A DNA stretch of 35,084 bases from an uncultured Saprospiraceae bacterium (lineage in GTDB: Bacteria; Bacteroidota; Bacteroidia; Chitinophagales; Saprospiraceae). The stretch covers positions 1-35,084 of the forward strand of contig CALDSS010000189.1 in NCBI GenBank assembly GCA_937924495.1, in the 5' to 3' direction. Positions 17,577 through 23,072 of the stretch are shown one piece after another. The notes under the pieces are model-generated. The model saw only the letters and a list, made by a program, of their open reading frames with translations. It was not told the origin of the DNA and made no database searches. Position 1 is the first letter of the stretch. Each line of letters opens with the position of its first letter. The position numbers and the translations under genes were made by a program.

Positions 17577-20500
17577 TTAGAATTTTATCATTCGACCAAC
17601 ATGGGTTTGGTTTCCCCAAATCAGTTGGTACAAAAACAGGCCATTCGCTGGCAAAACATCGGCTGGGATGGTTATGGTAGATTTTCCCTTAGTGTAAGTA
17701 TTTGTAATTTGAGTGATATATTTTCCTTTTGTATCAAAGATTTTTAGTTGAACTTCAGCGGCTGACGGCAATTCTATTTCAATATGCGTTTCGGTTGAAA
17801 ATGGATTTGGGAAATTAGGTGTTGCTGAAAATTCAAGAACTTTTTCATTTGAGAATTCGAGATTGACATTCAAATATTCATCCTCCAAACCGTAGGCTTC
17901 CGCAAGTAATTTTTCTTCGGAAATACTAAAATGATTTTCTAATTCACCGTTTGATTTCGGTTTCAAAACAAGAGTAAAAAGAATGGCTTCACCTGATAGT
18001 TCTGGGTTTATCCAGGAGGTCTGAATGAAGCCATCTGTCACACTATTAAATCCAAAATTATTTTTTGTCAATAAACCATATTCGATTTTTATAAATTCAA
18101 AAATTTCTTTTTCAAAGTAAAAACCAAATTGTAATCCAGCAATTTCCCCAACCTCATTTGTGGTGATTGGAATTTCGATAATTTCTCCTTTTTTGAAAAT
18201 TTGATTCTTTGCCTTGAGTGTAAAAGCTCCTTTGAACTTTCTATCCTCAATTAAATTGATATTATTCGGATTGACATCCAAAGTCACATCACCCACCTTG
18301 ATAGCAATAAAATCTGCATCAAGCACTTCATTGGTCAAATTGTTATAATTGATTGCTTCTGGAAAAGGAGTTTGCCATGGATTGAGCGGATTATTGAAAA
18401 TATGATTTTTGGAAACGAAACGCCAAGCAGTGTTTCCATTTGGAAATTTATCTGCCACCCTCAATACCATTTTACGCAACGCCACTACGTCCAGCGTAGA
18501 AACTGAATTACTCAAATTTGCATCAGCTGCAATAATTTTATAAGGTGAATTGAGCAGTTGAACATTCAGAACATGCTTCTGTACCAATATCAAATCAAAA
18601 GTAGAGATGCCAACATTATGCACATCATCGCGCATTGGAGTAACCGTAAAATCATCTCCTAATGTTAGATTATCAAATTGATAATGTCCATCATTTGTGG
18701 TCATCATCATCTGGGTTAAATCTCCACTGAGCGCCATTTGCACCTTGCTGACCGTTCTTCCATTTTCCATTTCAATTACACCACTCAATTTGGATTTGCT
18801 TCCTGAGCAATTATTGAAATTGTCTTGAATTTCCACCCAAGTGGTACAATAATCCCAGTTATTTTGATTGTCGCTGCTCACCTCTCCTACCCATAACTGT
18901 ACAAACTCAAGCATGCCGCTACTTGCACACGTGAATTGAATAGAATCAAAAATCGGTGGGCTGGAAACATGGTCATCTTCAGTAATAAATCCATCTCCAT
19001 TGGTATCCGTAATTCGGTTGAGACCAAACTTTATCGGATTACAATAATCATAACTGCTTGCATTAAAATCACTTGCCCAAAGCGCTGCAATTCCATTTCC
19101 ACTCAGGTCGATAGAAAGACCAGAATGACAAACAGGAGTAGGTGCTTTGCAATCTATAATTTCAAAAGTAAAATTGATTCGAGAGGTATTTCCACAATCA
19201 TCAGATACATTAAATTCGACAGCATGGACGCCCAAAGGATGACGACCAATTAGCGAGTCATTTCCCGTAAGGTCAAAAGTGCCATCACTAAATAAGTCTA
19301 ATTTCCAGCGAACAGAAATAGCATCAGGCGTACAAAATTCCATGACCTCAGGCATCAAACGAACCATGCCTGAACAATTTACCTCATCCAATTCTCCTCC
19401 ACAAAATTCGAGATTGGAGGGAGCAGTCAAGTCAGGGGCATGGCTATCAAAAACTTTGATGTGTTGAGTATATTCATAAAACCCAGTTGAGATTTGGGAA
19501 ACATTTCCATCTCGATAGAGCAAATTTCCATCGGAGGTTAGAAAGAATCCATCAAAAAGTCCATCATTGTTCAAATCTTGACGAGCAAGAATTGTGGGCT
19601 GACTGACGCCATCATATTCGCACCAATTGACAATTCTAAAGGTTCTAAAAATGGTTCGGCAAGAGCCATCATTTGTAGCGAAAAATTCCAAATCTTCTTT
19701 GTTGATGGCTAAGATATCGCAGCCATTTTCAGCGAATGCAAGGGTATCTGGAGTTGGAGCAGTACAATCAATTGAATAATCATCTGGGAAAGAAATTTCA
19801 TAATCGATTTTGGACTGAACCATAATTTGTTGGCGGCAATTTCCCAAAGAGGTATTGCCATGAATATCATCAGATTTGAAATTTCGGGTGATTCTTCCCA
19901 CTCCACAATTATCTAAAACAACTGTTGGAGCCAATTCTCGAATGGAAGCTTCACAATTATCTGTCGCAATTGGAAATCCAAAATTTTGGTTTAAAACCGT
20001 TGAATCAGAATAGTCTAAATTATCAGGAATGAGATCACAAGATGTCCACACATCAGCAGGTGCAATACATTTTGGTCGAACATTATCGTAAATTATAACA
20101 TGTACTTCACATTCATTGGCATGAGGTAATAAAGTGTCTAATTCTACCATTCCTGCGCCTGGGTTCACATCATAAACTCGAACCACAACATCAACTGTAT
20201 CACCAATATCCGTACAACAAAAGTTTATTCGATCATTAAAATAATCTTCGTCAGATTCATAACCACTACAGGGTTCTAATCTTTTAATTTTAAAATAAAC
20301 TCGTCCACAATTATCACGGCTTGCCACATCAAAATTATCGGCTGGTAAAGTAGTGGTCACCCCATTGTTCAAACTGACTACTGTAAACTCTCGACAGATG
20401 GCCACAGGCGGTATTCCATCAATTACTTTGATTTGAATGGTAGTGTCTCGAACATTGCCACAATTATCTGATGCAGAGTAGGTTACATCATGATATCCAC

Positions 20501-22022
20501 GTTCAAGATAAGGCGAAGGAATATCAAAACCAATAAGGTTTCCATTGGCATCCAAAATCGGTAGGCCCTCTCCTACCGATGTAAATACACGAATCATATT
20601 AATTCCTGAACATTGGTCGAAAACCAATGGTATATCTAATCTTCCTTCAGCTGCGCAAACTGGATTACTTCCATTTACATACTGATTGGAAACTAATTCA
20701 TTATCGAAATTTTGAAATATAATAGTGGGTGGTGTTTTGTCCTCCACTTTTATGATTTGAATATCTTGAATTATTTCATTTGTACAATCATTCAGCAAAG
20801 TCCAAGTTCTTAATATTTTGAAAGTATTGGTTTTATCAACTCCCGGACAAGCTTCTATTTTTTCATCGGAATAAGTCACGTTGTAGGGACAATCTGTTCC
20901 TTTTACATTGGGAATACCAGAACCCGTCAATTGCAAAATATCAGCATCTTCCAATCCTTCAATTTGTGTGTTTGCATTTGGCCCCGTTGGGTAATTCACT
21001 ATTTGAATCGTATCATGAATGTGCTGAGAACTATCAATAAAAGTCAAAAAAGCAGGTTCGTAATTAATGGATAAATTACAAACTGCGGTTTGATTATCAG
21101 TCTCGGCTGTTGGTGTATTTAGTGTGTTGAAAATCGGATCACCAATAATTGGAGTTGACAGATTTTCCAAAACATTAGGTAAAAGATCGGTGAGTGGATT
21201 ATCAAAAGTATCATCGAACGATGGATTCAGAGGCACATCCAAATCTTCACCATCTGTCCATGAAGAAAATGCATCTTTTCCAGGAAAATCGTCCTCTGCA
21301 TCAAGCATTGGATTGTTGAGACATTCATGCAAAGAGGTAGCAGAAATAATATTTGGAAAAAGGGCAAATTGTTCGCAAGTCCAAGTTACATCTTCAGGAA
21401 AGGTCGGAGTTGCTTGTCCAATTTCAATTATCTGATCACAAGTGCCTGAAATATTTCCATAAAAATCTATCGCTCGGTAGGTTCTTGTAATTATAGAAGT
21501 TCCGCAATTGTCCAGTTGCTTCTGTTCTTGGACAAATATTATAGTTGGATTGGAATCACATGCATCGGTCGCTAACGGCAAATTCACCTGATCGGGGTCA
21601 TTGAGACAGGTCAAGATATGAGTAGAACCACAATCAATTTGAGGGCCAATTTTATCTTGAACCGTAATCGAACTCCAACATTGATTCCCAGAAGAAATCT
21701 CAATCACCTTCACATCAATCACTTGACCAATATGATTTCCATTTGCAACGGGTGAAGAAGGCAAAGTCTGACCATTAATTTTTAAAACTACCTCAAAGTC
21801 ATCATAATTTGGATAGGTTCCTTCCAAAATCATATCTGGAAAAATAGGCGCCTCACAGGCAGTATTTAATGAAAGTGCAAGTCCATTATTACAGGCAAGA
21901 GAATTGCTCTCTGGCCAGCAAGTAGCTTCAGAGGAATTTCCAATGAAATTACTAAAACAAACTTGATAGAAGACTATATTGGTAAGCACCAAAATGGTCC
22001 ATTTAATTTTGAATACGTTCAT
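17577..22022 (-). CDS. Giant secreted HYR-like repeat protein with dockerin-like and cohesin-like segments and a T9SS type A sorting domain
   Basis: Repeated DNCG/DxxxPxxxC segments; dockerin-like AADANLSNSVSTLDVVALRKMVL; C-terminal NFPNPFSTETHIEIELPS...FLYQLIWGNQTHVGRMIKF. Start refined to MNVFKIKWTILVLTNIVFYQVCFS. Confidence 0.88.
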   Translation of the reverse strand: MNVFKIKWTILVLTNIVFYQVCFSNFIGNSSEATCWPESNSLACNNGLALSLNTACEAPIFPDMILEGTYPNYDDFEVVLKINGQTLPSSPVANGNHIGQVIDVKVIEISSGNQCWSSITVQDKIGPQIDCGSTHILTCLNDPDQVNLPLATDACDSNPTIIFVQEQKQLDNCGTSIITRTYRAIDFYGNISGTCDQIIEIGQATPTFPEDVTWTCEQFALFPNIISATSLHECLNNPMLDAEDDFPGKDAFSSWTDGEDLDVPLNPSFDDTFDNPLTDLLPNVLENLSTPIIGDPIFNTLNTPTAETDNQTAVCNLSINYEPAFLTFIDSSQHIHDTIQIVNYPTGPNANTQIEGLEDADILQLTGSGIPNVKGTDCPYNVTYSDEKIEACPGVDKTNTFKILRTWTLLNDCTNEIIQDIQIIKVEDKTPPTIIFQNFDNELVSNQYVNGSNPVCAAEGRLDIPLVFDQCSGINMIRVFTSVGEGLPILDANGNLIGFDIPSPYLERGYHDVTYSASDNCGNVRDTTIQIKVIDGIPPVAICREFTVVSLNNGVTTTLPADNFDVASRDNCGRVYFKIKRLEPCSGYESDEDYFNDRINFCCTDIGDTVDVVVRVYDVNPGAGMVELDTLLPHANECEVHVIIYDNVRPKCIAPADVWTSCDLIPDNLDYSDSTVLNQNFGFPIATDNCEASIRELAPTVVLDNCGVGRITRNFKSDDIHGNTSLGNCRQQIMVQSKIDYEISFPDDYSIDCTAPTPDTLAFAENGCDILAINKEDLEFFATNDGSCRTIFRTFRIVNWCEYDGVSQPTILARQDLNNDGLFDGFFLTSDGNLLYRDGNVSQISTGFYEYTQHIKVFDSHAPDLTAPSNLEFCGGELDEVNCSGMVRLMPEVMEFCTPDAISVRWKLDLFSDGTFDLTGNDSLIGRHPLGVHAVEFNVSDDCGNTSRINFTFEIIDCKAPTPVCHSGLSIDLSGNGIAALWASDFNASSYDYCNPIKFGLNRITDTNGDGFITEDDHVSSPPIFDSIQFTCASSGMLEFVQLWVGEVSSDNQNNWDYCTTWVEIQDNFNNCSGSKSKLSGVIEMENGRTVSKVQMALSGDLTQMMMTTNDGHYQFDNLTLGDDFTVTPMRDDVHNVGISTFDLILVQKHVLNVQLLNSPYKIIAADANLSNSVSTLDVVALRKMVLRVADKFPNGNTAWRFVSKNHIFNNPLNPWQTPFPEAINYNNLTNEVLDADFIAIKVGDVTLDVNPNNINLIEDRKFKGAFTLKAKNQIFKKGEIIEIPITTNEVGEIAGLQFGFYFEKEIFEFIKIEYGLLTKNNFGFNSVTDGFIQTSWINPELSGEAILFTLVLKPKSNGELENHFSISEEKLLAEAYGLEDEYLNVNLEFSNEKVLEFSATPNFPNPFSTETHIEIELPSAAEVQLKIFDTKGKYITQITNTYTKGKSTITIPADVLPANGLFLYQLIWGNQTHVGRMIKF

Positions 22023-22196
22023 GTAAATCGTTTTTGGGAACTTTCGCTCATGGCAAAAGCTTCCTAGGCCGAGCATAAGGCTCAACTCAATTGCTTGATC
22101 TCAATTAGAAATTCATTTAAGAACATCCAAAATCAAACATCTTTACAGAACGGTACGAAAGGGGAAAGAAGCAAAAAGATGAGGAAGAAATGACAA

Positions 22197-22224
22197 AGGC
22201 AGCGCCCGGGGAAGAGCACTGCCT
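22197..22224 (-). terminator. Terminator/attenuator-like hairpin in the minus-strand leader
   Basis: Minus-strand RNA AGGCAGUGCUC-UUCCCC-GGGCGCUGCCU, 11-bp stem with 2 G-U pairs, then UUGUCAUUUCUU. Confidence 0.55.
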
Positions 22225-22310
22225 CAACATTTTATCTTTTGATGTTACCAAATATGGTAAAAGCTTTTTGCATACGATTCTGGGATGTAAGTATATCGGT
22301 TTTATAATTA

Positions 22311-22344
22311 AGTAACGAAGACTTCCTAAAAAGTCTCCGCTACT
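22311..22344 (-). repeat. 14-bp hairpin with wobble pairs on the minus strand
   Basis: Minus RNA AGUAGCGGAGACUU-UUUAGG-AAGUCUUCGUUACU; all 14 positions pair with two G-U. Confidence 0.65.
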
Positions 22345-22455
22345 CTCTTTGTTCGATTCGGTTTACTTCAAATGATTTTGTTGTGGATTATAATTTGTTA
22401 GTATGTCCATAAAGGAAAATACATTTATTTGAAGTCCTTTATCCAAATCGTGCTA

Positions 22456-22463
22456 CAAAGGTA
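22456..22463 (-). promoter_or_regulatory. Candidate -7 element TACCTTTG
   Basis: Minus-strand ...GCTTCATGTACCTTTGTAGCACG; exact TAnnTTTG, no well-spaced -33 TTG. Confidence 0.5.
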
Positions 22464-22540
22464 CATGAAGCACAATCTTAAAGCCTACCCCAAATTGGGT
22501 ATTTAATCAATTAAAGGAAATTAAATTCTTTTGATTGAGC

Positions 22541-22592
22541 AAAAAAAAAGAGTATAAAAAACTGATTATCAGTTAATTACACTCTTTTTTTA
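22541..22592. terminator. Terminator downstream of the FKBP gene
   Basis: Imperfect stem AAAAAGAGTATAAAAAACTGAT/ATCAGTTAATTACACTCTTTTT with A and T tracts. Confidence 0.7.
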
Positions 22593-22616
22593 TCAAAAAT
22601 TATAATTGTTAAAATA

Positions 22617-23072
22617 TCATAAAACTTCTAATAATTCTACTTCAAATACCAAAACCTCATTATTTCCTATGACACTGCCAGGGGGTGGGTTATTGCCATA
22701 CGCCAAATCAGGAGGAATAATTAACAACCCTTTTCCACCTTCTTTAAACAATGGAATACCAATTGTCCACCCAGGAATGACTCCTTGCAAGTTGAAAGGA
22801 GTTACCTGAGCCGCAGGTGTTCCTTGGTTCGCATCAAAGGGAGTTCCATTCAATAATTCGCCTCGATAATGAACTTTTACATTATCCGTTTGAGATGGTC
22901 TTCGACCAGTACCCTCATTCTCAATAATGTAATAAAGACCTTCATCTGTAATCTGAACATCAAGGTCATTATCAGATACATATTGTTCAATTAATTCGAT
23001 CGGATCATCCTTTGAACAAGAGGATAGAATCGCAAAAGCAAACGCTAAAAAGAGTAATTTCTTCAAATTCAT
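22617..23072 (-). CDS. FKBP-type peptidyl-prolyl cis-trans isomerase (lipoprotein)
   Basis: VKVHYRGELLNGTPFDAN...VIPGWTIGIPLFKEGGKGLLIIPPDLAYG; lipobox ILSSCSK. Confidence 0.92.
   Translation of the reverse strand: MNLKKLLFLAFAFAILSSCSKDDPIELIEQYVSDNDLDVQITDEGLYYIIENEGTGRRPSQTDNVKVHYRGELLNGTPFDANQGTPAAQVTPFNLQGVIPGWTIGIPLFKEGGKGLLIIPPDLAYGNNPPPGSVIGNNEVLVFEVELLEVL

Follow-up and report, generated by a model that had tools for sequence, protein, structure and literature searches.

What is the role of the approximately 440 nt, without a convincing gene, that separate a hairpin at 22543-22591 from the gene for a 1481-aa secreted protein in the window, that is, the whole 35,084-nucleotide stretch of Saprospiraceae DNA that was analysed? 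This gene (17577..22022, minus strand) encodes a product with a C-terminal T9SS sorting tail, for which the Pfam family Por_Secre_tail gives an E value of 2.5e-5, just under the family cut-off. Over a long stretch, the protein shares 33% identity with the product of G000:C198, which is another predicted target of the small RNAs (sRNAs) described below.

On its other side, the interval is preceded by an FKBP-type lipoprotein gene (22617-23072, minus strand). The hairpin at 22543-22591, located 3´ of the FKBP gene, is bidirectional, with an A-tract and a T-tract, and is probably an ordinary terminator; similar sequences are found at G000:C88, C36, C107 and C24. No ORF of at least 60 aa lies wholly within 22090-22600, in agreement with the sequence-only reading, which had described a long stretch without a convincing ORF before the ATG at 22022. 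The possibility that the plus strand is coding was also rejected, with no ORF of note in the interval.

Promoter, fold and conservation of the leader

The sequence-only reading had placed an exact TAnnTTTG box at 22456-22463, about 430 nt before the ATG. The box, TACCTTTG, is indeed a Bacteroidota-type -7 promoter box on the minus strand, located 434 nt before the start codon, and TAnCTTTG occupies this position in three homologues (L063 among them). A palindrome with a 7-2-7 shape, TACCCAATTTGGGGTA (22486..22501, minus strand), lies 22 bp before the -7 box and is predicted to act as an operator; its shape presumably resembles the sites of NarL/LuxR-type regulators. A TACC-N8-GGTA palindrome is present exactly 22 bp before the -7 box in all four leaders known. 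Furthermore, the composite pattern TACCN7GGGTAN22TAnnTTTG has 14 exact matches in six genomes of the same genus, most of them preceding leaders of 200-500 nt in genes that start like those of exported proteins. Judged by these matches, the promoter (TACC-N7-GGGTA, 22 bp, TAnnTTTG) would be regulon-like and common to surface-protein genes.

The transcript expected from this promoter is strongly structured. The 279-nt minus-strand segment has a minimum free energy of -73.4 kcal/mol, compared with -46.9 ± 4.2 for dinucleotide shuffles (z -6.3; 0 of 200 shuffles as low), and the whole 441-nt leader gives a z of -6.4 against shuffles of the same kind. Its first domain, P1-P2 (22354..22450, minus strand), consists of the stems P1 (22450-22443/22361-22354) and P2 (22435-22427/22373-22365), both paired in the four leaders, and encloses an exposed loop. 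Downstream, the three hairpins proposed at 22311-22344, 22245-22260 and 22197-22224 were all found in place, as were the G–U pairs that form in the two long hairpins only on the minus strand, two in each. P4 (22311..22344) is a 14-bp hairpin with 14/14 pairs, the small hairpin spans 22260-22245, and P6 (22224-22197, 11/11 pairs) is followed by a U-run to give a terminator-like element at 22185..22224, all on the minus strand. The last hairpin had been described as terminator-like; the hairpin itself is strong, but its U-run (UUUGUCAUUUCUU) is weak. The sister leaders L087, L094 and L080 have clear, stronger terminators at the equivalent place.

A DNA search identified the interval in two genomes of the genus, G003 and G004, where it is flanked by the same pair of genes. 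Their leaders are 68-69% identical to that of the window, hold long invariant blocks and are conserved down to the ATG. This conservation is more than expected by chance, since the neighbouring FKBP proteins are just 61-63% identical. P6 retains 11/11 pairs in the three sequences, with compensatory changes from G–C to A–U and from C–G to U–A, while P4 shows one compensatory change, from A–U to G–C. The G004 leader (L003, at G004:C293) holds an insertion of about 170 nt just after P6, bordered by TCTTTTA and GCTTTTCTTCC; its long inverted-repeat arms make it look like a MITE.

A covariance model built from the first 146 nt of the leader (R1) detected a divergent copy in a further genome, G001 (33 bits, E 0.002). 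In this genome, a divergent peroxiredoxin-like gene lies upstream, and the gene on the downstream side once more begins like that of an exported protein, in this case a lamin-tail protein. The leader element thus travels with the downstream gene, as G001 has another upstream gene but keeps a secreted one downstream, and a tie to the FKBP gene is rejected. P1 and P2 are formed in G001 by 7/8 and 10/10 pairs despite largely different stem sequences, so that both stems are paired in all four sequences with at most one mismatched end pair. Since P1 is identical in three of the four leaders, the covariation rests mainly on G001. The minimum free energy structure of the G001 leader independently gives the same architecture (P1, P2, an extra hairpin and an open loop), and its P4 is followed by six T (TTTTTT), as in an intrinsic terminator. 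Exact 18-mer matches beyond the two relatives are presumed to be chance, and those rescored with R1 were at best marginal.

Between P4 and the start codon, several further elements can be distinguished on the minus strand. The block ACTTACATCCCAGAATCGTATGC (22270..22292) is exact in three genomes of the genus and weakly resembles the second half of the core complementary to the sRNAs (AUCCCAUGAAC). Two other genera contain sequences close to the invariant 23-mer, but both lie in or against coding genes and were discarded as chance. A putative short ORF, MQKAFTIFGNIKR*, read from the sequence at 22232..22273, overlaps the small hairpin at 22245-22260; it has counterparts in G003 (MHKAFTINCGINKR*) and G004 (MHKAFTIFCGINKR*), is absent in G001, and possibly encodes a leader peptide. 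The rest of the leader (22023..22184) includes the conserved TTCGTACCGTTCTG and AATTGAGATCAAGCAATTGAG.

Rfam searches of the window at gathering score gave no matches, with riboswitch, leader, tmRNA, RNase P, SRP and 6S models included, and the best sub-threshold matches obtained at permissive thresholds look like chance, in line with the earlier remark that the RNA resembled none of tmRNA, RNase P RNA or SRP RNA. Taken with the promoter-like region, the covarying stems and the homologous leader in the G001 context, the proposal of a minus-strand structured RNA tied to the downstream gene has held. Its structure stands, but not the limits given to it (22185-22463), as conservation reaches the ATG on one side and the palindrome at 22486-22501 on the other. 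The interval is thus well supported as a real element, the first part of an approximately 430-nt 5´ mRNA leader of the 17577-22022 gene.

The exposed loop and its motif

The unpaired loop is the most informative part of the leader, and it was overlooked by the sequence-only reading. It contains ACAAAUUAUAAUC (22386-22398), the longest stretch invariant across all four leaders. The mean unpaired probability is 0.74 in the loop, compared with 0.41 for the leader; across the four leaders, the predicted values are 0.68-0.82 in the loop and 0.38-0.44 overall. The predicted sRNA target, UACUAACAAAUUAUAAUCC, occupies 22385..22403 (minus strand) around this invariant core.

The 13-mer of the loop is strongly over-represented in the genus, with 48 matches as opposed to 2 for the reversed control, and across Saprospiraceae ACAAATTATAATC is about ten times as frequent as its own reversed control. 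Two classes of site can be distinguished. Class 1 sites either precede the ATG of a long ORF by at most 30 nt, and at least 15 of these ORFs begin like exported proteins, or lie within leaders like that of the window, including sister leaders that share the palindrome promoter. The site is also present 5´ of the ATG in G000:C198, the paralogue of the window protein, and in G000:C89, which encodes a lamin-tail protein like that of G001. The site in the window differs from the clearest mRNA targets in lying about 360 nt from the ATG, with no adjacent start codon. Class 2 sites are intergenic and lie in a 30-nt conserved core beside a GC-rich hairpin, often in tandem.

Putative small-RNA genes and their predicted pairing

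The strand opposite the class 2 motif carries, in order, promoter-like boxes, the seed AUGUUCAUGGGAUUAUAAUUUGU, a hairpin and a T-run. A strict terminator follows the seed at 55 of 83 sites, while the other direction gives 5 of 83 and shuffled sequences 0.5, and promoter-like boxes precede the seed at 14 of 76 (0.3 when shuffled); several sites have a conserved start box some 70-80 nt upstream of the seed. The terminator stem covaries, with seven pairs changed on both sides. From this arrangement, the class 2 sites are likely to be multicopy sRNA genes. The view that the tandem intergenic copies act as decoys in the manner of CsrB was dropped, as the polarity of the terminators makes the other strand the likely transcript. 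A mobile repeat or REP element behind the copies is likewise not favoured, given that they carry covarying terminators and that the tandem locus recurs in five genomes of the same genus.

With a covariance model of these loci (R2), 47 of the 61 Saprospiraceae genomes yield 1-8 copies each and the 89 genomes of other Bacteroidia yield none; exact matching of a 16-mer to 217 genomes gave a consistent distribution. Fifteen loci, seven of them with clear sRNA genes, had no Rfam match up to an E of 1, FopS included, and literature searches on the loop motif and on Saprospiraceae riboswitches returned nothing relevant. The sRNAs would therefore form a previously undescribed family, confined to Saprospiraceae in the genomes sampled. 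The window's own genome has three R2 copies (two in C93 and one in C107) and two seed variants (C29 and C75).

Tandem arrays of 2-4 units, mostly with a pitch of 100-190 nt, are seen at L139 (G097:C6), L173, L200 and L171. Copies also sit at the contig ends of G103, G097 and G124, so that the arrays may exceed their assembled length. A putative second sRNA type, with the seed CGUUUUUUUCUUGAGAUUAUAAUUUGU, is present in L111, L164, L166, L119, L116 and L099 and matches ATGAAAAAAACGAAT starts (MKKTN-type). In addition, the window's genome encodes an RRM-1 domain protein (L223, G000:C48:3042-3251), a candidate sRNA partner by analogy with RbpB.

The second unit of C93 (G000:C93) is complementary to 22403-22385 of the leader over 19 nt without a mismatch, while the longest perfect complement reaches at most 13 nt in 300 shuffled leaders and 12 nt in 460 other tiles of the window. 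The 19-nt match and the search are not independent, however, as it was the leader's own 13-mer that led to the sRNA genes. Longest perfect complementarity was used here in place of gapped duplex energies, which, computed with no accessibility term, did not separate the window site from shuffles. Targeting of the leader loop by the sRNAs is a strong prediction from these matches, and Saprospiraceae probably control surface-protein genes through a shared sRNA network.

Proposed mechanism, alternatives and known systems

The reading that we consider probable is that a FopS-like network of sRNAs acting in trans targets the structured, attenuator-like leader of the secreted-protein gene. Transcription would start just after the -7 box, at the promoter common to the surface-protein regulon, and the first 100 nt or so would fold as the P1-P2 stem, displaying the unpaired loop. 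The sRNAs (at least the two of C93 and that of C107), with the seed GUUCAUGGGAUUAUAAUUUGU and an intrinsic terminator, would then form a duplex of up to 19 nt with this loop. Where the site of a target mRNA overlaps the start-codon region, pairing would block ribosomes, while in the window leader it would most likely remodel P1-P2 and thereby alter termination at P4/P6, or else affect leader stability. That the sRNAs change the folding of the leader and its termination has a somewhat less than even chance of being the actual effect, the alternatives being RNA stability or a leader-peptide effect; it is favoured because the sister leaders have clear terminators and P4 in G001 is followed by six T. 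The conservation and structure of the leader, the sRNA genes and their complementarity to it come from the computations, and from these we infer that both RNAs are made and paired in the cell, as well as the direction of the effect, the outcome of which would be premature termination or a translation block.

A long conserved leader with a strong fold, terminator-like hairpins, an invariant loop and a short ORF kept in three genomes could also act with no sRNA at all, as a self-contained attenuator or riboswitch in which a small molecule, or translation of a leader peptide, is sensed and P4/P6 termination is switched accordingly, with the loop as the ligand-binding part. This is unlikely, since the loop sequence recurs family-wide at start codons and, as a reverse-complement seed, in terminator-bearing sRNA genes, and no Rfam riboswitch or leader matches. 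Slightly less likely still is that ACAAAUUAUAAUC serves as a translation enhancer bound by a protein or the ribosome (for example, ribosomal protein S1 or an RRM protein), the opposite-strand seed RNAs being secondary or acting otherwise. Bacteroidota are not known to rely on Shine-Dalgarno sequences, the motif lies from a few to 30 nt before the ATG in many genes, and its conserved core has roughly the length that a ribosome covers, all of which would suit an enhancer. However, the intergenic copies have their terminator on the opposite strand, making the complement the likely product, and the window site stands far from the main ATG with no start codon beside it. The conserved 13-mer could nevertheless be kept partly as a translation-enhancing sequence.

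The least probable alternative, to which we give little credence, is a free-standing RNA of about 250 nt ending at P6 and independent of the downstream gene. The strongest structure is indeed bracketed by the promoter box and the terminator-like hairpin, and the insertion in G004 falls just after P6. Nevertheless, a leader is favoured because three genomes show conservation as far as the ATG, and in G001 the element stays with a downstream secreted gene while the upstream gene changes.

The sRNA-targeted leader can be compared with systems already described. It has been reported that, in Bacteroides, FopS sRNAs block translation at start codons, together with the RRM-1 protein RbpB (PMC11697453). 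Like the loci described here, FopS/GibS are multicopy paralogous sRNAs with an unpaired conserved seed and an intrinsic terminator, the seed being complementary to start-codon regions of outer-surface-protein mRNAs (a predicted pairing in our case), in a genome that encodes an RRM-1 protein (PMC11697453). The Saprospiraceae family differs in its seed (AUGUUCAUGGGAUUAUAAUUUGU), in the lack of a match to the Rfam FopS model and in its restriction to Saprospiraceae among the genomes sampled. It also differs in its tandem arrays, in having T9SS-type and other exported proteins as targets rather than SusC, and in a predicted target site that lies in a structured leader, well away from the ATG.

In the plasmids pT181 and pIP501, an antisense RNA controls transcription attenuation. 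There, as is predicted here, the loop to which the small RNA binds belongs to a long leader with terminator-like hairpins; unlike those RNAs, the sRNAs of the present case would act in trans from multiple copies at other loci, and attenuation is a proposal. CsrA/CsrB-type systems use decoys, in which a short motif is common to mRNA start regions and noncoding RNAs. One short motif likewise occurs here in many mRNA start regions and multicopy noncoding loci, but these loci make the complement of the motif, pointing to base pairing instead of decoys.

RNA regulation in Saprospiraceae is apparently undescribed, and little is known about the control of T9SS cargo in Bacteroidota after transcription. 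The recurring seed, matched to a recurring mRNA site, provides a directly testable list of targets across dozens of genera. This would point either to more than one origin, within the phylum, of FopS-like control of surface proteins by multicopy sRNAs, or to a mechanism that predates Bacteroides and extends beyond that genus. If it acts as proposed, the folded leader would be an unusual case of trans-acting sRNAs directed to a dedicated long leader and not to a start codon. More tentatively, a Saprospiraceae-wide regulon may exist, in which one recurring seed, encoded in tandem arrays, and a shared site on a start codon or folded leader would coordinate the T9SS surface proteome, with the leader described here as an sRNA-gated transcription attenuator.
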